A stretch of DNA of 64,000 bases from Micromonospora coriariae. GTDB lineage: Bacteria > Actinomycetota > Actinomycetes > Mycobacteriales > Micromonosporaceae. Under the pieces are notes generated by a model. That model was given only the letters and a program-made list of their open reading frames with translations. It was not told where the DNA came from and did not search any database. Location: contig NZ_LT607412.1 of the NCBI RefSeq assembly GCF_900091455.1, forward strand, positions 496,001 to 560,000. Direction: 5' to 3'. The number at the start of each line of letters is the position of its first letter. Position 1 is the first letter of the stretch. Below are positions 42,867-55,785 of this stretch, one piece after another. A program made the translations under genes and the position numbers.

Positions 42867-43850
42867 TCAGGCCTTCTCCAGCAGCGCCAACACGACCCGT
42901 TCGGCCTCCTCGCGCGGCGCCTGCGGGTCCACCGGCGCCACCACACCGTCGTGGTAGAGGTCCACCACCCGAGGGTCCACGTAGGACGTGCGCGCCACGG
43001 TGGGGGTGTTGCCCAGCAGCTCGGCGACCTCGCGCATCACCGCGACCACCGCCTTGCGCCGGGCGGTCATCGAGCGCCCCGGGCCGACGGTGGCCAACTC
43101 GGTCGCGGCGAGCACCGTGGCGTGCCAGGTGCGGAAGTCCTTGGCGGTCATCTCCCCGCCACTTGCGTCGCGCAGGTATCCGTTGACCTCGTCGCTGCGC
43201 ACGTCCCGCCACTCCCGGCCGTCCCAGTAGCCGAACAGACGGTCCGCCCGCCGACGGCGGCGGCGCAGGTCGATCAGCACCTGGCACAGCTCCGGATCCT
43301 CGATCCGGCGTACCTGCTCGATGCCACCCTTCGCCGGGAACTCGAAGACCACGCAGCCGCGCCGGGTCCGGGCGTGCTCGGGGCGCAGGGTGGACACCCC
43401 GAACGTCGGATCGTCGCCGGCCGCGTACTGGTCGCTGCCCACCCGGAACATCCCCATGTCCAGCAACCGGGCCACCGTGGCCAGCACCCGGTCCCGGCCC
43501 AGGCCCCGGCCGCCCAGGTCGTTGCCCACCCGCTCCCGCAGCACAGGCAGCCGCCGGGCCACCTCCAGCATGTGGTCGAACTTCGCCTCGTCCTGCTTCT
43601 CCCGCCACAGCGGGTGGTAGAGGTACTGCTTGCGCCCGGCCGCGTCGATGCCGGTCGCCTGGATGTGCCCGTTCGGGTACGGCGAGATCCAGACGTCCTG
43701 CCAGGCCGGCGGGATGACCAGCTCCCGCAGTCGGGCCAGCTGGTCCGGATCCCGGACCGGAGCGCCGCTCGGATCGACGAAGTGCCAGCCCTTACCGCGC
43801 CGTCGGCGCCCGTACCCCGCCCGGCCCGGATCACTACGCCGCAATCGCAC
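42867..43850 (-). CDS. DNA topoisomerase IB
   Basis: The 327-residue enzyme is a small poxvirus-like type IB topoisomerase that relaxes supercoils by a 3'-phosphotyrosine link. N-terminal domain: GKGWHFVDPSGAP and WISPYPNGHIQATGID. The catalytic part has GCVVFEFPAKGG and TAKDFRTWHATV, and the active-site Tyr lies near 290 in RTSYVDPRVV. It is the last gene of the heptose operon and overlaps the GT9 gene by 17 bases. Bacterial forms are typically about 300-350 residues, so this is full length. Confidence 0.9.
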   Translation of the reverse strand: MRLRRSDPGRAGYGRRRRGKGWHFVDPSGAPVRDPDQLARLRELVIPPAWQDVWISPYPNGHIQATGIDAAGRKQYLYHPLWREKQDEAKFDHMLEVARRLPVLRERVGNDLGGRGLGRDRVLATVARLLDMGMFRVGSDQYAAGDDPTFGVSTLRPEHARTRRGCVVFEFPAKGGIEQVRRIEDPELCQVLIDLRRRRRRADRLFGYWDGREWRDVRSDEVNGYLRDASGGEMTAKDFRTWHATVLAATELATVGPGRSMTARRKAVVAVMREVAELLGNTPTVARTSYVDPRVVDLYHDGVVAPVDPQAPREEAERVVLALLEKA

Positions 43851-44787
43851 CGGAGACCCGCACCACCCGTTCCACCTCGTCCACGGCGGCCAGCACCTCG
43901 TCGAGCCGCAGAGCCGCCAACGTCGGGTGGCTTCCTACCCCGTCCCACCTGCGCCAATCACCCTCACCGGCCCAGAGCACGCGGTGCCGGGGCCGGTCCG
44001 GCGGCGGCCCCCAGTGGGCCGGCGGCACCGGCCCGAAGAGCACCACCGAGGCGGTGCCGTACCCGGTGGCCAGGTGGGCCACGCCGGTGTCCCCGCTGAC
44101 CACCAACCGGGCGTTGGCGACAAGTGCGGCGAGCGCCCCGAGGTCGGTCCGGCCGGCCAGCACGGCGGTCGGCGGCAGGCCGGCCGCGTCGGCCACTCCG
44201 GCGGCCAGGGCGCGTTCGTCGGCCGAACCGGTGAACAGCACCCGGTGCCCCCGGTCGGTGAGCGCCCGGGCCAGCGCGGCGAACCGCTCGGCCGGCCAAC
44301 GCTTCGCGGGAATCTTGCCGCCGGGGTGCAGCACGGTCACCCCGGTGGGCAGCCCGGCCACGTCGGGGCGGCGCAGAGCGAGATCGGTGCGGTCGGTCGC
44401 GACGCCGTACCACGACAGCAGCCCGCACCACCGGTCCACCTCGTGCTCGTCGGCCGCCCACGGCGGGCCGTCGGTGAAACCGGCCTCGGTGTTGGCGAAG
44501 GCGAGCAGGCGTCCGGGGCGGGCGGCGGCGAGCAGCCGGTGCGACTGCGGGCCGCGTCCGTGCAGGTTGACCGCGACCTGCGGGGCCGGACCGGGCCAGG
44601 CCGGGCGGTCCAGCCCGGCGGTGTCCACCAGCCGGTCGACGCCGCCGACCAGGTCGACCAGCGGGGCCAGCCAGGCGGGCGCGGCGAGCGCCAACTCCCG
44701 ACCGGGGTACGCGGCCCGCAGCGCCCGCAGCGCGGGCACCGCGGTGACCAGGTCGCCGACGCCGAGGGCGCGCAGGACGAGGATCAC
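43834..44787 (-). CDS. GT9-family (heptosyltransferase-like) glycosyltransferase
   Basis: The 317-residue GT-B glycosyltransferase begins MILVLRALGVGDLVTAVPALRALRAAYPGR, typical of GT9 (WaaC/WaaF group). It has TVLHPGGKIPAKRWPAERFAAL and VVSGDTGVAHLATGYGTASVVLFGPV, the donor-binding part. GT9 enzymes commonly use ADP-heptose. Its start overlaps the SDR stop by four bases, and its stop runs into the topoisomerase gene. With the GmhA/HldE/GmhB set in the same operon, use of a heptose donor is likely. The acceptor is unknown. Confidence 0.88.
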   Translation of the reverse strand: MILVLRALGVGDLVTAVPALRALRAAYPGRELALAAPAWLAPLVDLVGGVDRLVDTAGLDRPAWPGPAPQVAVNLHGRGPQSHRLLAAARPGRLLAFANTEAGFTDGPPWAADEHEVDRWCGLLSWYGVATDRTDLALRRPDVAGLPTGVTVLHPGGKIPAKRWPAERFAALARALTDRGHRVLFTGSADERALAAGVADAAGLPPTAVLAGRTDLGALAALVANARLVVSGDTGVAHLATGYGTASVVLFGPVPPAHWGPPPDRPRHRVLWAGEGDWRRWDGVGSHPTLAALRLDEVLAAVDEVERVVRVSGAIAA

Positions 44788-45485
44788 GGGTACGAGGTCT
44801 CCTGCTCGGCGCAGACCACCATCTCCCGTACGGCGCAGCCGGGCGGCTGGTTGAGCGCGTACATGATCGCCGCGGCGGTGTCGACGGGATCGTTGAGGAT
44901 GGCGTCCGGCCCCGGCTTGTACTGCGGGTCACGCTCGTCGAAGAACGCGGTGCGCATCCCGCCGGGAATGAGCAGGGTGACGCCGACCTGGCCGGCGAGT
45001 TCGGCGGCGAGGGCGCGGGTGAAACCGACCACGCCGAACTTCGCCGCGCAGTACGCGGTGGCGTCGCTGACCGCCTTGACACCGAGGGTGGAGGCGACGG
45101 TGACGATGCGCCCACGGGAGGTCTGCAGGAACGGCAGGGCGGCCCGGATCACCGCGGCGGTGGCCAGCAGGTCGACCGCGACGATCCGGTCCCAGGTCTC
45201 CCCCGGCACGTCGGCGAGCCGGCCCGGCACGTCCATCCCGGCGGCGGTCACCACCGCGTCCAGGCCGCCGGCCTGCTCGGCGAGGTGTTGCGTGGCCACC
45301 TCGGCGGCCCGGGTGTCGGCCAGGTCGCACTCGGTCCAGGACACCCCCTCGACCGGCGGCTGCCGGTCCAGCACGAGCGGCCGGCCACCGGAGGCGGCCA
45401 CCGCGGCGACCACCGCCGCGCCGAGGCCGCTGGAGCCGCCGGTGACCAGGACTGTGGGCCCGGCGCCGGGCGACCCGGCGCTCAT
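44784..45485 (-). CDS. Short-chain dehydrogenase/reductase
   Basis: The 233-residue classical SDR has the Rossmann TVLVTGGSSGLGAAVV loop near 12-27, an NADP region LDRQPP, the catalytic Ser/Tyr/Lys in VASTLGVKAVSDATAYCAAKFG and the C-terminal GGMRTAFF. It is too short and the wrong subtype to be HldD (an extended SDR of about 310-330 residues). ATG 45485 overlaps the HldE stop. It could modify the sugar or the lipid/acceptor made by this operon; the exact step is unknown. Confidence 0.87.
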   Translation of the reverse strand: MSAGSPGAGPTVLVTGGSSGLGAAVVAAVAASGGRPLVLDRQPPVEGVSWTECDLADTRAAEVATQHLAEQAGGLDAVVTAAGMDVPGRLADVPGETWDRIVAVDLLATAAVIRAALPFLQTSRGRIVTVASTLGVKAVSDATAYCAAKFGVVGFTRALAAELAGQVGVTLLIPGGMRTAFFDERDPQYKPGPDAILNDPVDTAAAIMYALNQPPGCAVREMVVCAEQETSYP

Positions 45486-47050
45486 CGGGTCCGCTCCCCA
45501 CCGGGCGTCACCGACGACGGCGCGGCGGTGCAGGCCGGCTCCGTCGGGTCGCCGGTCGCGCAGCACGCGCCGGTGGCGTGCCCCTGGCCGGAGCGGGCGA
45601 TCATGTCGGTGGTGGACCGGCCGTCCAGGTACGGCACCACCACCGTGTGCCCGCCCCAGCGGCGCAGGACCTCCGCCTCGGGCAGCGCCGCGGAGTCCCC
45701 GCCACCGGTGGCGTAGTCCCCGCCCTTGACCCAGATGTCCGGACGCAGCCAGGACAGCGCCGCCTCCGGGGTCGACTCGTCGAAGAGCAGGACGGCGTCC
45801 ACACAGCTCAGCGCGGCCAGCAGCCGTGCCCGGTCACCCTCGGACATCACCGGCCGGTCCGGCCCCTTCAACCCGGCGACGCTGGCGTCGGAGTTGAGGC
45901 AGACGATCAGGCAGTCGCCGAGCTGCCGGGCGGCCTGGAGGGTGGCCACGTGCCCGGCGTGCAGCAGGTCGAAGCAGCCGCCGGTGGCCACCACCGTGCC
46001 GCCGGCCGCGCGTACGTCGGCGAGCAGCGTGGCGACGGCCGCCACGCCCACCCGGTCGCCGCCCGAACCGACCACGCCGGTGGGCAGCGGTCCACGGTTC
46101 GTTCGCGACTGCGGGGCCCGCAACCCCGGCTCACTCCTCGCGCTCAACGGTCGCACGCGGGGTGGGAGGGCCGCCGCCACTCCCCCGCCCGCCACGTACG
46201 CGGACGCCTCGGCGACCGCCGCCTGCACCGCCTCGGAGACCAGCGCGCCCTGGGCCAACGCGAGACTGGCGCTGGCCGCGAACCGGTCGCCGGCGCCGCA
46301 GGTGTCCCCCTCGGCGCTGCCCGGGGTGGGCACCACCAGCGGCGTCGATCCAGCGTGGCAGAGCAGCGCGCCGTCCCCGCCCAGCGTCACCGCGACGGCG
46401 CCGGCCCGCCAGCGTCGGCGCAGACCCTGCGCGCCCCGGGAAGCGGTCGCCAGGCGGGACGCTCCGGGCAGCGTGGGGACCAGCTCGCGCACCTCCGACT
46501 CGTTCGGTGTGGCCAGATGCACGCCGGGCACCGCCGCCGGTCCACGCGGATGCGGGTCCCACACCACCGGGGCGCGGGTGGCGGCCAGCGCGGCGCGCAG
46601 CGCGGGCTGACGGGCGACCCCCCGACCGTAGTCGCTGACCAGCACCGCCGACGCCGCACCGATCACCCGCAGCACCTCGTCGGAGGGCTGGCCCGGTTCG
46701 CCGGGTACGCCACCGCGGTCGTGGCGCAGCAGCACCCGGCCGCGGGCCCGCAGCCGGACCTTCTCCGGCGTCGCGCCGGACAGGGTCAGCGGGTACACCT
46801 GCACGCCGGCGGCGGCGAGCAACGCGCTCAGCCGGGCGCCGCCGGCGTCGTCGGCGAGCGCCGTCACCAGCACCACCTCGGCGCCCTGCGCGGCGGCGAA
46901 GACCGCCGCGAGGCCGGCGCCACCGGGTCGGTCAGTGGCCGACGTCTCATCGAGCACGGGCACCGGGGAGTCCGGGCAGAGCCGGTTCACGACCCCTTCC
47001 ACGTCCCGGTCGAGCAGGGTGTCCCCGACCACCACCACGGGTCCCCTCAC
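45482..47050 (-). CDS. hldE: Bifunctional heptose-7-phosphate kinase / heptose-1-phosphate adenylyltransferase
   Basis: The 522-residue protein is a fusion. A PfkB-type kinase (1-300) has the catalytic GDTCGAGDRF with GAGD near 252-255. A cytidylyltransferase-type domain (about 340-480) has ATGGCFDLLHAGH with HxGH near 364-367. HldE makes ADP-D-glycero-beta-D-manno-heptose from D-glycero-D-manno-heptose 7-phosphate, after GmhB removes the 7-phosphate. The linker (about 300-335) is longer than in the E. coli enzyme. About 35 Ala/Thr/Gly/Cys-rich residues extend the C terminus beyond the domain. Its TGA overlaps the SDR ATG. Confidence 0.9.
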   Translation of the reverse strand: MRGPVVVVGDTLLDRDVEGVVNRLCPDSPVPVLDETSATDRPGGAGLAAVFAAAQGAEVVLVTALADDAGGARLSALLAAAGVQVYPLTLSGATPEKVRLRARGRVLLRHDRGGVPGEPGQPSDEVLRVIGAASAVLVSDYGRGVARQPALRAALAATRAPVVWDPHPRGPAAVPGVHLATPNESEVRELVPTLPGASRLATASRGAQGLRRRWRAGAVAVTLGGDGALLCHAGSTPLVVPTPGSAEGDTCGAGDRFAASASLALAQGALVSEAVQAAVAEASAYVAGGGVAAALPPRVRPLSARSEPGLRAPQSRTNRGPLPTGVVGSGGDRVGVAAVATLLADVRAAGGTVVATGGCFDLLHAGHVATLQAARQLGDCLIVCLNSDASVAGLKGPDRPVMSEGDRARLLAALSCVDAVLLFDESTPEAALSWLRPDIWVKGGDYATGGGDSAALPEAEVLRRWGGHTVVVPYLDGRSTTDMIARSGQGHATGACCATGDPTEPACTAAPSSVTPGGERTR

Positions 47051-47066
47051 GCTTTCCTCCTCATCC

Positions 47067-47765
47067 TCACGCGTCGACCTGCTGGCCGGTCCCGCCGTCG
47101 AGCACCACCTCGACCCCGGTACGCACCGGCCCGGACGGGACCCGACCGGCCGGTGCGGGCTCGGCCGGTTCGTGCCGGGTGGACGCGGCCAGCGCGGCGG
47201 GCAACTCCTGCTCGAGGTATTCGCAGAGCAGGTGGCTGGTGACGAGGTGCAGTTCCTGGACGACCTGGGAGTCGGGGGACGCGACCGCCAGGGCGTCGGC
47301 GCAGGCGTCGGCGAGGGGATTGGGGGCGGGCCCGGTGAGCGCCCAGGTGGTGAGGCCGCCGTCCCGGGCCGCGTGCGCGGCGGTGAGCAGGTTCGCGCTG
47401 GTGCCGCTGGTGCTGAGCAGCAGCAGGATGTCGCCGGGTCGGCCGTGGGCGCGGACCTGGCGGGCGTAGACGTCGGCGTAGCCGTAGTCGTTGGCGATCG
47501 CGGTCACGGCGCTGGTCTCGGCGTGCAGGGCGATGGCGGACAGCGGCTGCCGGTCGTGGTGGAGCTTGCCGACGAGTTCGGCCGTGAGGTGTTGGGCCTC
47601 GGCCGCGCTGCCGCCGTTGCCTGCGACCAGCAATCGCCCGCCGCCCGCCAGCCGGTGCGCCAGCTCGGCACCCCAGCGCGCCAACTGCGACTCGCACCGG
47701 CGGTAGGGCACCAGCGCCGCGGCAAGGTTCGTCAGATGGGTGTCGAGCAGGCTGCCCGCCGGCAT
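47067..47765 (-). CDS. gmhA: Sedoheptulose-7-phosphate isomerase (SIS domain, GmhA-like)
   Basis: The 232-residue SIS protein isomerises sedoheptulose 7-phosphate to D-glycero-D-manno-heptose 7-phosphate. Motifs: LLVAGNGGSAAEAQHLTAELVGK, LSTSGTSANLL and the C-terminal QELHLVTSHLLCEYLEQEL with His and Glu for the metal and catalysis. The C terminus is about 30 residues longer than E. coli GmhA. Its ATG shares an A with the GT4 stop, and hldE follows 16 bases later. This is the first step of the ADP-heptose route in the same operon. Confidence 0.92.
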   Translation of the reverse strand: MPAGSLLDTHLTNLAAALVPYRRCESQLARWGAELAHRLAGGGRLLVAGNGGSAAEAQHLTAELVGKLHHDRQPLSAIALHAETSAVTAIANDYGYADVYARQVRAHGRPGDILLLLSTSGTSANLLTAAHAARDGGLTTWALTGPAPNPLADACADALAVASPDSQVVQELHLVTSHLLCEYLEQELPAALAASTRHEPAEPAPAGRVPSGPVRTGVEVVLDGGTGQQVDA

Positions 47766-48982
47766 CAGGCCACCACCCGGGTCGGCCGGCGCACGGCGGC
47801 GACCTCGCTGTAGAGCTCCGCCAGCCGCTCGGCGGTGGCCGCCCAGGAGTACCGCGACCGGGCCCGCTCACGCGCGGCGGTGGCGTACCGGAAGCGCCGG
47901 ATGCGGTCGTCGAGCAGCCGCTGGATCGCGGTCGCCAGGGCACGTGGATCGCGGGCCGGCACGAGGTCACCTGTCGTCCCGTCGACCACCGTGTCCCGGA
48001 TGCCGCCCACCGCGGTGCCGACCACCGGCACGCCACAGGCCATCGCCTCCAGCGGCGTCAACCCGAACGGCTCGTACCAGGGGGCGGCGACCAGCAGGTC
48101 CGCCGAGCGGTACCAGCGGCCCATCTCCTCCCGGGGCACCGCGCCGACCAGCCGTACCCGGTCGGCCACCCCGCAGGTCTCGGCCAGCGCCCGCAGCCGC
48201 CGGGCGTACGGGTCGGTCTCCAGCAGTCCCTCGGGCGGCCCACCCACCACCACGCACTCGGCGTCCGGCACCAGGGCCATCGCGCGGACCACGGTCTGGA
48301 AGCCCTTGCGTTCGACCAACCGGCCCACGGTCAGGATCCGGGGCCGGCCCGGCTCGCGGTCCGCGACCGGCCCGAGCGGGGCGAACGAGGCGAGGTTCAC
48401 CCCGGACGGGACGACTGTCATCCGGGACCGGGGCACTCCCATCCGGACCAGCTCACCGACCTCGTCGCGGCACTGCGCGACCACCCGGTCCACCGAGCGC
48501 CCCAACTCCCTCTCGTAGGAGATCCGCCGGGCCGGACTGGTGTCCTGCACGCCCTGGTAGCGGCGCTTCACGGTGCCCAGCGCGTGGTACGTCTGCACCA
48601 CCGGCACGCCGGTCTGCCGGCCGGCATTCAGCCCGGCCAGGCCACTCATCCAGAAGTGCGCGTGGATCACCTCGGGCATCCAGTCCCCGCCCCGCCACCG
48701 CTCCACCAGCCACCGGCTGAACTCCCGCATGTGCGGCAGCAGCGCGTCCTTGGCCACCGGCTCGGCCGGACCGGCCGGCACGTGCACCACGTCGTACCCG
48801 TCCGGGCTGCGAACGGTCACCGGCAGGTCGAGCGCGTCGCGGCGGGTGTAGACCCGCACCTCGTGCCCGGCGTCGGCGAGCGCGGCGGACAGTTCCGCGA
48901 CGTGCGTGTTCTGGCCGCCGGCGTCCTCCCCTCCGAGGATGGCGAGCGGGCTGGCGTGCTCCGAGATCATCGCGATCCGCAT
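47765..48982 (-). CDS. GT4-family glycosyltransferase
   Basis: The 405-residue GT-B enzyme begins MRIAMISEHASPLAILGGEDAGGQNTHVAELSAALADAG. The C-terminal donor site has APWYEPFGLTPLEAMACGVPVVGTAVGG with the E-x7-E pattern. It belongs to the same broad group as mycothiol MshA and sucrose-phosphate synthases, so the donor cannot be named. It overlaps the next upstream glycosyltransferase by 16 bases and gmhA by 1. In this operon a heptose or mannose transfer is a reasonable expectation. Confidence 0.87.
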   Translation of the reverse strand: MRIAMISEHASPLAILGGEDAGGQNTHVAELSAALADAGHEVRVYTRRDALDLPVTVRSPDGYDVVHVPAGPAEPVAKDALLPHMREFSRWLVERWRGGDWMPEVIHAHFWMSGLAGLNAGRQTGVPVVQTYHALGTVKRRYQGVQDTSPARRISYERELGRSVDRVVAQCRDEVGELVRMGVPRSRMTVVPSGVNLASFAPLGPVADREPGRPRILTVGRLVERKGFQTVVRAMALVPDAECVVVGGPPEGLLETDPYARRLRALAETCGVADRVRLVGAVPREEMGRWYRSADLLVAAPWYEPFGLTPLEAMACGVPVVGTAVGGIRDTVVDGTTGDLVPARDPRALATAIQRLLDDRIRRFRYATAARERARSRYSWAATAERLAELYSEVAAVRRPTRVVA

Positions 48983-49941
48983 ACTTCCTCCTCCAGCAGC
49001 CGGTCCCAGTCAGCGAGGAAACGGTCGAGGCCGTACCTGTCCCGCGCGGCCGTCCGTGCCGCCGCGCCGGCCTGACGCGCGGCCGCCGGCTCGGCGATGA
49101 ACCGGCGGGCGGCGTCGAGCAGGGTGTCCATCCGGGTGGCGAGGGCCCCCGCCGCCGGGGGCACCGCCGTCACCGCCTCGGTGGTGGCGAGCGCGACGAC
49201 CGGCATGCCGATCGCCATCGCCTCGATCAGGCTGAGCCCGAGCGAGGTCCACCGGCACAGGTGCAGGTACGCGCGCCGCCGGGCCAGTTCGGCGTGCATC
49301 CGGTTCTGGGGTACGTCGTCGTGGCTGGTGAGCCGGTCGGCGGGCAGGCCGAGGTGGTCGGCGAGGCCGGCGACGCCCATGCCGAACACGTCCAGCGGAG
49401 CGATCTCGGCGAACCGGGGCAGCAGGTCGGTGCCGGTGACCCGGCCCCGCCGTACCGGCTCGTTGATCACCACGGCGAGTCGGTCGAGCTCACCGGTGTA
49501 CGACACTGCGGGGGCGACGATCCCGTGGTCGACCACTGTGGTGCGGCTGGCGCCGGTGTCCCAGAAGATCTGGTTGAACCCGGTGACGTGGGCGATGAGC
49601 AGGTCGTCGCGGTCGGCCATCGGGTGCCGGGTGTTGGGCACGTCGCCCTTGGGCGTGTTGTGCTCCACGTAGATGGCCGGGACGTCGCGGCCGGGGCGGC
49701 GGCCCAGCCACTCCTCGGCGAGGTCGACCTCCTCGGGGCGTTGCAGGATCACCAGGTCGACGCCGGCGCCGAGCAGGTCGGCGGGGGCCACCTCGACGGC
49801 GCTGTCGGGCCACGGGTAGGTGCGGGCACGGCCGAGGCCGTAGGGGCCGCGGTCGGGTGTGGTGGGGATCAGGTAGCGGTGACCGCCGTGCACGAAGGAC
49901 GTGGTCCAGGAGCCGTGCACGTGCCAGAGCAGGATGTTCAT
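48967..49941 (-). CDS. GT1/GT4-like glycosyltransferase
   Basis: The 324-residue enzyme begins MNILLWHVHGSWTTSFVHGGHRYLIPT. A His-rich acceptor side is seen near the N terminus and a donor site with CRWTSLGLSLIEAMAIGMPVVALATTE near 235-260. It is shorter than the other GT4 enzyme, and its N-terminal domain is distinct. The start is ATG 49941, which overlaps the fusion gene stop by four bases. The donor and acceptor are unknown. Confidence 0.82.
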   Translation of the reverse strand: MNILLWHVHGSWTTSFVHGGHRYLIPTTPDRGPYGLGRARTYPWPDSAVEVAPADLLGAGVDLVILQRPEEVDLAEEWLGRRPGRDVPAIYVEHNTPKGDVPNTRHPMADRDDLLIAHVTGFNQIFWDTGASRTTVVDHGIVAPAVSYTGELDRLAVVINEPVRRGRVTGTDLLPRFAEIAPLDVFGMGVAGLADHLGLPADRLTSHDDVPQNRMHAELARRRAYLHLCRWTSLGLSLIEAMAIGMPVVALATTEAVTAVPPAAGALATRMDTLLDAARRFIAEPAAARQAGAAARTAARDRYGLDRFLADWDRLLEEEVCGSR

Positions 49942-51572
49942 CGGCCGCCACCACCGCTGACGGTCAGCACGCGCAACGCATCGACCACCTCGGCCGGGTC
50001 GATGCCGCTGAGGCACGGGTGCGCGGGCACCGGGCAACTGGCGGCCCGGGTGTCCCGGCAGGGCGCGTCGGCGTTGCCGAGCCGGACGGTGGGCACCCGG
50101 TAGGGCCCCCACTGCCCGAACGGGACGGTCGGCGCGAAGAGACTCACCACCGGCACCCCGGCCGCGGCGGCGAGGTGTGCCGGCCCGGTGTTGCCGACCA
50201 CCACCGCTCCGGCGTCGGCGACGATCGCGGCCAGCCCGGGCAGGTCCGTCCGGCCACCCAGATCGGTACCGCCGGCCGCCGCGACCCGGGCGGTCACGTC
50301 ACGCTCGTCGGGGCCGCCGGTGACCAGCACCCGGTGCCCGGCGGCGGTCAGTGACCTGGCGATCCGGGCCGCCAGCTCGGGCGGGCAGGCCCGGCTCGAC
50401 GCGGCCGAGCCGGGGTGCAGCACCACGTAGCCGGGGTCACCGAGGTCGGCCGGTCGGGGCGGCAGGGCGTCCGGCCGCAGCCGCAGCACGGGTTCGTCGT
50501 CGACGGGCAGCCGGTGGCCGGCCGCGGCGGCGAGGGAGAGAGCACGTTCGGGTTCGGGGACGCCGACGGGCACCCGGTGGCGCACGTCCAGCAGGGAACC
50601 CGGGTAGTCGTCGCTGATCGCGGAGATCCGGCGGATCCCCGCCATCCGCAGCAGCAGCGCCAGCGGCAGCGCGGACTGGTGGAACGAGGTGAACACCACC
50701 GCCTCGTCCGCGCCGACCGCGGCGAGGCGCGCGATCAGGGTCCGCATGGCGTCCGGTTCGACAGGCGCCGGCGCGGGATCGATCCACGGCAGCGGATGTT
50801 CGATGATCTCGTCCACGCCGGGCAGCAGGTCGGCGGCCGCGCGCCCGCGTGGCCCGCACAGCAGCACCACCCGCTGCGCGCCGGCCGCGACGGCGCGGAT
50901 CGCCGGCCCGGTGACCAGAACGTCCCCGGCCGAGTCCGACCGCACCACGAGTGCCGTCCCCGCCCGCTCGCGGACCGGACCCGGCACGGCGCGCACCGCC
51001 TGCTGGCGGCGCAGGATCTCATCCACCGCCGACGGTAGATCGCTGGCCAGCCACCCGGCGGCGGCGACCTCCTCCGGTCGGGTCACCGGGGTGGGCACCA
51101 GCACACCTGTCGCCCCCGCCGCCAGCGCGGCGGCCACGTCCCGACCGATGTCGCCCACCAGCACGCAGCGCGACGCGCGCGTGCCGAGCTCCCGTGCGGC
51201 GGCGTGCACCAGGCCGGGGGCCGGCTTGCGGCACTCGCAGCCGTCGGCGTCGTCGTGCGGGCAGACCAGCCACGCGTCGAAGCGCCCCAGCAGCTCCTCG
51301 ATCCGGGCGTGCACCGCCCGCATCTGCTCCGCACTGAAGTAGCCACGGGCCAGACCGGACTGGTTGGTCACCACCGCCAGCCGCAACCCGGCGGCCCGCA
51401 GCCGGTCCAGCGCCGCTCGCGCCCCCGGCACCGGCCGTACCTTCTCCGGATCACCGTTGTACGGCACGTCCTCGATCAGGGTGCCGTCGCGGTCCAGCAG
51501 CACCGCGTCGTACAGGACGGGGCGGATGCCCTCGACAGGCCCGGAACCGGCCCGGCCAGCACCGGCGTACAC
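49938..51572 (-). CDS. Fusion of GmhB-like phosphatase and GT9 glycosyltransferase
   Basis: The 544-residue protein joins two enzymes. An HAD-IIIA phosphatase (about 20-180) shows LLDRDGTL with DxD at 27-29, VVTNQSG, and the zinc loop CPHDDADGCECRKP (Cys104, His106, Cys112, Cys114) specific to GmhB. A GT9 transferase (about 200-540) has VLHPGSAASSRACP and VVVGNTGPAHLAAAAGVPVVSLFAP. GmhB removes the 7-phosphate of heptose bisphosphate; GT9 enzymes use ADP-heptose. GTG 51572 is taken as start; GTG 51617 is also open. It is first in the operon. Confidence 0.85.
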   Translation of the reverse strand: MYAGAGRAGSGPVEGIRPVLYDAVLLDRDGTLIEDVPYNGDPEKVRPVPGARAALDRLRAAGLRLAVVTNQSGLARGYFSAEQMRAVHARIEELLGRFDAWLVCPHDDADGCECRKPAPGLVHAAARELGTRASRCVLVGDIGRDVAAALAAGATGVLVPTPVTRPEEVAAAGWLASDLPSAVDEILRRQQAVRAVPGPVRERAGTALVVRSDSAGDVLVTGPAIRAVAAGAQRVVLLCGPRGRAAADLLPGVDEIIEHPLPWIDPAPAPVEPDAMRTLIARLAAVGADEAVVFTSFHQSALPLALLLRMAGIRRISAISDDYPGSLLDVRHRVPVGVPEPERALSLAAAAGHRLPVDDEPVLRLRPDALPPRPADLGDPGYVVLHPGSAASSRACPPELAARIARSLTAAGHRVLVTGGPDERDVTARVAAAGGTDLGGRTDLPGLAAIVADAGAVVVGNTGPAHLAAAAGVPVVSLFAPTVPFGQWGPYRVPTVRLGNADAPCRDTRAASCPVPAHPCLSGIDPAEVVDALRVLTVSGGGGR

Positions 51573-51772
51573 CCGGGCTGACCTGCGCTGATCCGGATCC
51601 TCCTGGTCCTGTCGCACAGGCGGCGGGTTCCCTGCGCCCCGAGGAGTAAACGTCGTCGTCGGCGCGGTGGGCCAGCGCCGCCGGCGGCGCCCCGCGTCGG
51701 CCTTACCCGCAGTCCCCGAGAAGCTAACCCGACGGGCCGTTAGCCTCCTTCTCCCCGGGGTATGGGAGTCCA

Positions 51773-54177: not shown

Positions 54178-55785
54178 TCAGTCGGGGTAGACCGCCCGGT
54201 GCGCGGTGGCGATGGCGGCGGCGTAGGCGCGGCCGGTGAGCGCACGGTCGCGCGCGAGCGCCGCACGGGCCGCGTTCGCGCCGGGCGCGCCGTGCACCCC
54301 GCCGCCGGGATGCGCCGACGCGCTGGCCAGGAAGAGCCGGTCCACCGGGGTGTCCGCCCGGCCCAGGCCGGGGATCGGGCGCAGGAACAGCTGCTGGTAC
54401 GCGGCGGCGGTGCCACCGCCGAGCGTGCCGCCGACCAGGCTCGGATTGCCCTTCTCCAGGTCGGCCGGGCCGGCCACGTGCCGGCCGACGATGAGCTGCC
54501 GGAAACCCGGTGCGGCCGCCTCCAGCACGTCCTCCATCCGCTGGACGTGCCCAGCGACCTCCTCGGCCCGCCAGTCCCGGCGGAACGGCAGGTGCGTGTA
54601 CGACCAGAGCGACTCGGTGCCCGGCGGGGAGTGGCTGGGATCGGCGACCGACATCTGCCCGAGCAGCAGGAACGGGTCGCGCGGCAGCTCGCCGCGGGCC
54701 AGCTCGCCGGAGTACCGGGTGAGTCCGTCCAGGTCGGCGCCCAGGTGCACGGTGCCGGCACCGGCCACCTCCCGGTTCGTCCACGGCACCGGCGCGCTGA
54801 GCGCCCAGTCCACCTTCAGCGTCGAGCCGTCCCACCGGAAGTGCGCCAGGTCCTCCACCAGGCGCGACGGCAGCGCCGCCGCGCCGACCAGGTCGAGGTA
54901 GAGCGCCGGCGCGGGTACGTCCGCGAGCACGGCCCGCCGGGCACGCCACAGGAGGCCGCCCTCCGTGCGCACCCCCATCGCCCGGCCCCGGGCGGTGAGC
55001 ACCCGGTCGACCCGGGCCCCGTAGACGATCCGGCCGCCGCGCTCCTGCAGCCGGGCCACCAGCGCGTTGGTGATGTGCTGCGCGCCACCGTCGGGCACCG
55101 GCCAGCCGACCTGCTGACCGAGCATGGCCAGCAGCCAGCCGTACACCCCGGAGCCGGCCTCCTCCGGGGACAGGTCGGTGTGCAGGGCGCAGCCGGCGAG
55201 CAGCGCCGGCCCGCCGTCGCCGTCGAAGAGTTCGCCGCCGAGCTTGCGGACCGGCACCACCAGCCGCCGAGCCAACCGCAACGCTCCGGCGACCCGCATC
55301 CGCCGCAGCAGAGCCAGCCCGCCCCGCACCGGTGGGAACGGCGTGGTGATGGTCGTCAGCATCGGCTCGGCCACCTCGAGCCAGTCGGTGTACGCGTTCA
55401 GCCACCGCTTGCCGTCACCGGGCGCGAACCGTTCCAGCGAGGCGGCGGTGACGTCCGGGTCCCGGTTGATCACCGCGGCGCGGCCGTCCGGGAGCAGGTG
55501 CGCCAGCACGTCCGGCGAGTGCCGCCAGGACAGCCCGTACCGGTCGAGGTCGAGCCCCGCCAGCACCGGCGAGGAGTACCCCAGGGGGTAGAAGGAGCTG
55601 TAGAGGTCGCTGAGGTAGCCGGGCGCGGTCACCTCGGCGGAGCGGACCGCGCCGCCGGGCACCGCGGTCGCCTCCAGCACCACGACGTCCCATCCGGCGT
55701 CCGCCAGCAGGTTGGCCGCTACCAGGCCGTTGTGGCCGGCCCCGACGACGACGGCGTCCGCGCTCTCCGCGCCGGTGGTGGTCAT
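54178..55785 (-). CDS. FAD-dependent oxidoreductase (phytoene desaturase-like)
   Basis: The 535-residue protein begins with the dinucleotide-binding loop DAVVVGAGHNGLVAANLLADAGWDVVVLEA and ends with a second FAD-binding stretch ASAHPGGGVHGAPGANAARAAL. It resembles the CrtI/phytoene desaturase-like group, whose members mostly act on isoprenoids or unknown lipids. No carotenoid genes (crtB, crtE) are nearby, so a carotenoid role is not supported. Start ATG 55785. It is divergent from the aldehyde dehydrogenase, with a 72-base gap. Confidence 0.85.
   Translation of the reverse strand: MTTTGAESADAVVVGAGHNGLVAANLLADAGWDVVVLEATAVPGGAVRSAEVTAPGYLSDLYSSFYPLGYSSPVLAGLDLDRYGLSWRHSPDVLAHLLPDGRAAVINRDPDVTAASLERFAPGDGKRWLNAYTDWLEVAEPMLTTITTPFPPVRGGLALLRRMRVAGALRLARRLVVPVRKLGGELFDGDGGPALLAGCALHTDLSPEEAGSGVYGWLLAMLGQQVGWPVPDGGAQHITNALVARLQERGGRIVYGARVDRVLTARGRAMGVRTEGGLLWRARRAVLADVPAPALYLDLVGAAALPSRLVEDLAHFRWDGSTLKVDWALSAPVPWTNREVAGAGTVHLGADLDGLTRYSGELARGELPRDPFLLLGQMSVADPSHSPPGTESLWSYTHLPFRRDWRAEEVAGHVQRMEDVLEAAAPGFRQLIVGRHVAGPADLEKGNPSLVGGTLGGGTAAAYQQLFLRPIPGLGRADTPVDRLFLASASAHPGGGVHGAPGANAARAALARDRALTGRAYAAAIATAHRAVYPD

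Follow-up and report, generated by a model that had tools for sequence, protein, structure and literature searches.

What does a soil actinomycete without lipopolysaccharide (LPS) do with genes of the kind that supply heptose to the LPS core? The question is raised by an operon of Micromonospora coriariae that lies in a window of 64,000 nucleotides (contig NZ_LT607412.1 of assembly GCF_900091455.1, positions 496,001 to 560,000; G000:C1:496001-560000 of a single-contig 6.93 Mb genome). Eight genes run on the minus strand from 51572 to 42867 in the order GmhB-GT9 fusion, GT4b, GT4a, GmhA, HldE, short-chain dehydrogenase/reductase (SDR), GT9b and topoisomerase IB (Table 1). They overlap by 1-17 bases (4 bases for GT4b if the ATG at 49941 is its start), and the sole gap is the 16 bases between GmhA and HldE. 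A preliminary description had placed all of these enzymes in one operon, and all of them were found there, although the phosphatase and the first GT9 enzyme, which it had listed as separate genes, form one fused frame (49938-51572). The operon is predicted to encode the four-step route to a nucleoside diphosphate (NDP)-heptose together with heptosyltransferase-type GT9 enzymes, and we infer that it is a cwg-type operon, related to the “cell wall glycan” operon of Streptomyces coelicolor; the locus is of a known kind. It is probably a reduced, paralogous cwg operon that supplies heptose to an acceptor of the cell envelope, either a glycan or a glycolipid. The ratio of nonsynonymous to synonymous substitution rates (dN/dS) over nine pieces of the operon was 0.10-0.28 with the locus L001 as partner, 0.13-0.33 with L005 and 0.26-0.51 with L029, which is more distant. 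Because the ratio was low across all nine pieces, a chance set of frames was excluded, and the genes are under purifying selection.

The operon proteins were assigned to families with NCBIfam and Pfam profiles, and the heptose genes reached the Pfam cut-offs and some of the broader NCBIfam domain cut-offs. HldE carried both of its domains (PRK11316, 245.7 bits with a cut-off of 521; rfaE_dom_II, 171.7 with 181.5; rfaE_dom_I, 135.2 with 345), with the motif CGAGDR in the kinase, the motif FDLLHAGH in the nucleotidyltransferase, and the segment YLDGRSTT. When this segment was compared with the (F/L)XXGRSTT motif of the promiscuous HENase STTR5, the arginine was kept and the first position was Tyr rather than Phe or Leu. 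The residue at the place of this arginine was Arg in 66, His in 8 and Tyr in 3 of the 83 HldE places, and 6 gave no match. Arginine in the STTR5 motif is described as marking enzymes that accept ATP, CTP and UTP (PMC11573728). GmhA matched TIGR00441 with 155.6 bits, against a cut-off of 209.45. Its segments AGNGGSAAEAQH and QELHLVTSH (QE.HL) lined up with the phosphoheptose isomerases 2xbl and 2x3y, and a GmhA motif pattern was matched in 74 of 78 places. The GmhB-like domain (PRK08942, 124.8 bits with a cut-off of 178) contained LLDRDGTL and the zinc loop CPHDDADGCECRKP, which was as long as in 3l8h and 4pnh and shorter than in 2gmw. This domain and a GT9 domain formed a single open frame of 544 codons with an uncertain start codon (GTG at 51572 or later); such a frame was found in 50 of 75 places, all Micromonosporaceae, and the two were separate in 25, which belong to other families as far as they are named. 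The motifs of isomerase, kinase, phosphatase and nucleotidyltransferase were all intact in the operon, and the genes support a predicted synthesis of NDP-D,D-heptose. The D,D form is expected because a genome-wide profile search for HldD gave 11 matches and none above the cut-off (the best with 126.7 against 274.6 bits), a search that an unrelated epimerase would escape. No match to LpxC (PF03331) was found in the genome at E<=0.001, with the control positive in 4 of 14 genomes, so LPS is not expected as the end product. The earlier view that an LPS-core-type heptose route is present in an LPS-free organism was therefore borne out.

Both GT9 domains lay above the PF01075 cut-off of 22 bits (96.8 for GT9b and 71.5 for GT9a). 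In GT9b, the segments GD, AKRWP and SGDTGVAH lined up with WaaF 1psw, and GD, K and DTG..H were kept. In GT9a, GD and the Asp aligned with the base of WaaC were kept, Lys192 was replaced by R, and Asp261 was replaced by N; the N was found in 69 of 76 GT9a places, and the other 7 gave no motif match. In WaaC and WaaF, these residues act as the base and in the donor site. The changes in the GT9a donor site and the missed equivalog cut-offs speak for enzymes that use a sugar other than D-glycero-D-manno-heptose, but the isomerase, kinase, phosphatase and nucleotidyltransferase occur together with motifs that match solved heptose enzymes, and a different sugar is improbable. The structure model of GT4b (pLDDT 93.8) matched GT4 enzymes, first 6kih with a TMq of 0.75, among 353 matches at E<=0.001, and a 30-sequence alignment of GT4b had a mean column identity of 67%. 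The best PDB sequence relatives of GT4a were 6kih and 3c4q, the latter titled MshA.

Table 1. Genes of the operon and putative upstream elements, in window positions, with the evidence for each assignment.
Feature	Position	Strand	Evidence
GmhB-type haloacid dehalogenase (HAD) phosphatase + GT9 fusion (cwgD+cwgE equivalents)	49938..51572	-	PRK08942 124.8 bits, PF01075 71.5 bits
GT4b glycosyltransferase (cwgF equivalent by position)	48967..49941	-	weak Pfam, structure model, alignment
GT4a glycosyltransferase, MshA-like (cwgG equivalent)	47765..48982	-	TIGR03449 252.8 bits, cut-off 462.5
GmhA, sedoheptulose-7-phosphate isomerase (cwgH equivalent)	47067..47765	-	TIGR00441 155.6 bits
HldE, heptose-7-P kinase / heptose-1-P nucleotidyltransferase (cwgI equivalent)	45482..47050	-	PRK11316 245.7 bits, PF00294, PF01467
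Classical SDR	44784..45485	-	PF00106 121.5 bits; YCAAK, GGSSGLG motifs
GT9b, heptosyltransferase-like (cwgJ equivalent)	43834..44787	-	PF01075 96.8 bits; TIGR02195 79.2, cut-off 134.6
DNA topoisomerase IB, final gene (17-base overlap with GT9b)	42867..43850	-	PF01028 104.9, PF21338 84.8 bits
e2, putative promoter element	51622..51651	-	GTTTACTCC-N10-GGGAACCCGCC
e1, putative promoter element	51704..51730	-	GGGTTAGCTTCTC-N8/9-GGGTA

The cwg operon of S. coelicolor (SCO6179-6190), called the cell wall glycan operon since 2002 (Hong et al. 2002, as cited in PMC6767563), is controlled by sigma-E and predicted to produce a glycan of the cell wall (PMC6767563, PMC5839063). It is induced by vancomycin in a partly sigma-E-dependent manner (PMC6767563). 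Expression of all cwg genes is raised 1.3- to 4.3-fold in an argR mutant (PMC5839063), an increase that would be compatible with a link to the supply of carbamoyl phosphate where the carbamoyltransferase is present. cwgH was described as a phosphoheptose isomerase and cwgI as a bifunctional synthase/transferase (PMC5839063); these labels fit the order of GmhA and HldE in the G590 series described next. Among 392 genomes of a genus taken as Streptomyces, the published cwg promoter had one exact occurrence, in G590, and occurred with a single mismatch in three other genomes. The promoter of G590 stood 147 bases, the published distance, before the earliest start codon of the epimerase frame. This frame was followed by matches to a carbamoyltransferase, GT2, GmhB, GT9a, GT4b, GT4a, GmhA, HldE and GT9b and then by a further two long frames, which brings the total to twelve. 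The window proteins were 52-62% identical to the seven shared proteins of this series (G590 being Streptomyces-like and not proven S. coelicolor). Seven of the ten matched cwg genes were present in the window and collinear; the epimerase, carbamoyltransferase and GT2 were absent. The S. violaceoruber locus L051 had been considered as a stand-in for S. coelicolor, but no exact cwg promoter was found in its stretch, and G590 was used instead.

The genome contained a second operon of this type. Three HldE proteins were found by TIGR02199, and TIGR00441 gave two strong and two weak GmhA matches, both strong ones in the two cwg-type operons. Each of the five GT9 matches (PF01075) lay at most about 3.2 kb from one of the three HldE genes, and the one carbamoyltransferase of the genome (PF02543) lay within the second operon (G000:C1:5249521-5260077, in L105). 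This operon had nine of the ten cwg genes, the epimerase not being in the examined stretch. It shared the core order and the SDR with the window operon, and the two HldE proteins were 62% identical over the best stretch. It differed in that a carbamoyltransferase and GT2 preceded the core genes, neither e1 nor e2 occurred, and no topoisomerase was matched within the 19.5 kb examined. The third HldE locus (L104, 8042-13143; G000:C1:2232041-2237142) consisted of an HldE of 632 codons and a GT2, facing a GT9, Hsp20 and DUF2231; it was rejected as a further cwg copy on these neighbours and its separate HldE clade. On a long branch flagged by the program, the third HldE formed a clade with the second HldE found in Arthrobacter kin and in Amnibacterium. 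HldE proteins of this clade were found near cwg-type loci in those bacteria. The HldE tree comprised 66 rows from 58 of the 83 places with a match, after 21 window-type Micromonospora loci had been thinned by hand and L054, L055, L061 and L066 (<330 residues) had been set aside. The window type (Micromonospora, Salinispora) and the second-operon type were neighbours at a node without strong support (92/76), and Actinoplanes branched outside them (100/99). This pattern fits a duplication within the family with a subsequent loss of the carbamoyltransferase and GT2, transfer being the alternative origin of the two copies. As far as the database and literature searches reach, neither the trimmed variant nor the presence of two copies has been described before. 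Since one genome holds both forms, the contribution of the carbamoyl group and of the additional GT2 could be learned by comparing them.

In the named genomes, the loci of the best 80 of 188 HldE relatives were analysed, so absences mean little. The nearest of these relatives were in Micromonospora, with up to 91% identity. Core genes were counted at 90 bits and 40% identity, irrespective of order and strand. At least six of the seven were found in 72 of the 80 loci, all seven in 63, five in L049 and L073, and four or fewer in L035, L055, L064, L066, L070 and L075. Contig ends cut L035, L055 and L066, and L064 had no GmhB and GT9a between GT2 and GT4b and was cut before GT9b. The order carbamoyltransferase-GT2-GmhB-GT9a-GT4b-GT4a-GmhA-HldE-(SDR)-GT9b was found in Actinoplanes, in the second operon and in Streptomyces (with the epimerase in front and no SDR). 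Loci of Nocardia and Mycobacterium had an epimerase, a gene of UDP-glucose dehydrogenase type and, in four of the five, two GT4 genes upstream (the fifth was cut). GT4b (L049) or GT9a (L065) was placed elsewhere in metagenome-assembled genomes of Thermoleophilia. The carbamoyltransferase and GT2 were missing from Arthrobacter and its kin, Amnibacterium and Saccharothrix, where GT9b lay upstream on the opposite strand in 6 of 11 loci and was absent from the examined stretch in 5. The search for the same operon in other actinobacteria, suggested in the preliminary description, was thus answered by a family that spans several actinobacterial families with local departures.

This recurrence bears on the possibility that the product is a diffusible, heptose-containing natural product of the septacidin or hygromycin B kind rather than an envelope glycan. 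Septacidin heptose is made in actinomycetes (PMC11461863, PMC11573728, PMC10948575), and two of the 80 loci, L070 (Actinomadura) and L075 (Kitasatospora), had GmhA and HldE plus a weak match to GmhB but none of the cwg glycosyltransferases; these GmhA-HldE pairs are possible natural-product clusters. However, the same gene set recurred across several families, and the named families formed supported HldE groups, with the deep order open. A search for HldE in 37 genomes of the same genus found the window type, whole or partial, in all of them: full-length in 33, own genome included (E<1e-200), and partial in 4, the best-kept piece of each being 79-87% identical. In a sample of the phylum, HldE was matched at E<=1e-60 in 24 of 296 genomes, a number lowered by the strict limit and by split matches. 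No synthetase, transporter or resistance gene was recognised in the operon by the NCBIfam and Pfam profiles. Of the products proposed earlier (glycan, glycolipid or secondary metabolite), an envelope glycan or glycolipid is favoured, and a secondary metabolite is unlikely given the recurrence and the HldE of the 37 genomes.

The upstream region suggested how the window form may be controlled. Element e2 (<=2 substitutions) was found in all 38 carbamoyltransferase-less Micromonosporaceae places with upstream sequence, window included, and e1 (<=1 substitution) in 36 of them; four further carbamoyltransferase-less loci (L016, L035, L055, L066), whose upstream sequence was cut off, were not counted. 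Neither element was found in the 24 carbamoyltransferase loci, in the 15 remaining loci, or in the whole stretches of L105, L114, L115 and L116, and a stricter 30-base form of e2, with <=3 mismatches allowed, had a single site genome-wide. Both elements resemble the GTTT-N15/16-GGGWA promoters of SigB/F/H-type stress sigma factors, and sigma-E-type control therefore seems to have been lost from the window copy. A stress-type sigma factor would probably set expression through these conserved sites. A sigma-E-type site (GAAC-N15/18-CGTC) was rejected as the shared promoter; it lay about 300 bases upstream, inside the neighbouring divergent gene, in only 6 of 39 places (the window and 5 close relatives).

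In the proposed scheme, GmhA, HldE and the GmhB domain would make the NDP-heptose, the two GT9 domains would transfer heptose to an envelope acceptor, and the two GT4 enzymes would add other sugars to the same acceptor. The substrates, product, acceptor, envelope location and regulator of the operon are those that we infer from its genes. It is also conceivable, though rather doubtful, that the NDP-heptose is made but the transferases attach sugars to a protein or to a small soluble compound rather than to a wall glycan. GT4a is MshA-like, and MshA glycosylates inositol phosphate; no membrane protein was recognised in the operon; and protein heptosylation of the AAH type is known (PMC11461863). 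On the other hand, four glycosyltransferase domains suggest a longer oligosaccharide, and the cwg relative is under a cell-envelope stress sigma factor. Several points weigh against the envelope reading. No flippase, polymerase, ligase or other gene for placing a product in the envelope was recognised in the operon. The heptose itself is a prediction from the genes, none of the NCBIfam equivalog cut-offs for HldE, GmhA, GmhB or heptosyltransferase was reached, and the donor site of GT9a differs from that of WaaC at two positions. The function of cwg is itself only predicted, and its sigma-E-type site is not conserved at the window-type operon. Among the genomes with a one-mismatch promoter, gene content was compared in G463 and G480, with G539 set aside. 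G463 had the same ten matched genes as G590, but in G480 (L116, G480:C1:6066500-6081500) the promoter was followed only by GT2- and GT4a-like matches, which looks like a replacement or shortening of the operon; the cwg promoter alone is thus no guarantee of the gene series. The preliminary description had suggested that the product may be one not yet described. The operon family is in print as cwg with a predicted cell wall glycan, although no structure of the cwg product was found. A literature search, mostly below full-text depth, found no report of an identified cwg product or of heptose in it, and neither heptose nor cwg occurred in the main text of a paper on Actinoplanes missouriensis polysaccharide (PMC13390465) or one on umbrella toxins (PMC13274773). 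The supply of heptose to an envelope acceptor by a reduced cwg operon was still preferred. If cwg is read as a complete NDP-heptose pathway with enzymes of the heptosyltransferase type, heptose becomes the specific sugar to search for. A wider proposal can be made tentatively: cwg-type operons may produce a heptose-containing envelope glycoconjugate, a counterpart of the LPS inner core in LPS-free actinobacteria, and some Micromonospora may make carbamoylated and uncarbamoylated versions under different sigma factors.

The topoisomerase IB is probably a passenger of the operon. In 40 of the 80 loci, those of Micromonosporaceae, it shared a strand with GT9b and was no more than 1 kb away. It came after GT9b in the same orientation at 33 of 41 loci in Micromonospora, 3 of 3 in Salinispora and 3 of 5 in Actinoplanes; in both Mycobacterium loci it was nearby on the opposite strand. 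The SDR had 529 PDB relatives, and the 60 listed span many substrates. None of the eight operon proteins had a PADLOC match at E<=1e-10 that would point to an anti-phage role, and no RNA family reached its gathering score within the window. A CrtO/phytoene-desaturase-like FAD enzyme (window 54178-55785) was found upstream of the operon on the same strand and had a like position in many Micromonospora loci.

NDP-heptose pathways are described from different kingdoms, with functions beyond LPS that are still largely undefined (PMC11461863, PMC11573728, PMC10948575); NDP-heptose outside LPS, including septacidin in Streptomyces, was published by Tang et al. 2024 (PMC11461863, PMC11573728). Compared with the LPS inner-core route of Gram-negative bacteria (GmhA, HldE, GmhB, HldD, WaaC/WaaF), the operon shares the four-step donor synthesis and the GT9 transferases, but it adds two GT4 enzymes and lies in an actinomycete genome with no LpxC match and no HldD above the cut-off. 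A heptose derived from sedoheptulose-7-phosphate in an actinomycete is shared with septacidin and hygromycin B (Tang et al. 2018, as cited in PMC10948575), whereas the operon has no recognised natural-product genes and its gene set recurs across families. The differences from cwg are the lack of the epimerase (cwgA), carbamoyltransferase (cwgB), GT2 (cwgC) and last two genes, the GmhB-GT9 fusion, the extra SDR, the other upstream sites and the topoisomerase IB at the end, and the likeness is the common order GmhB, GT9, GT4b, GT4a, GmhA, HldE and GT9b.

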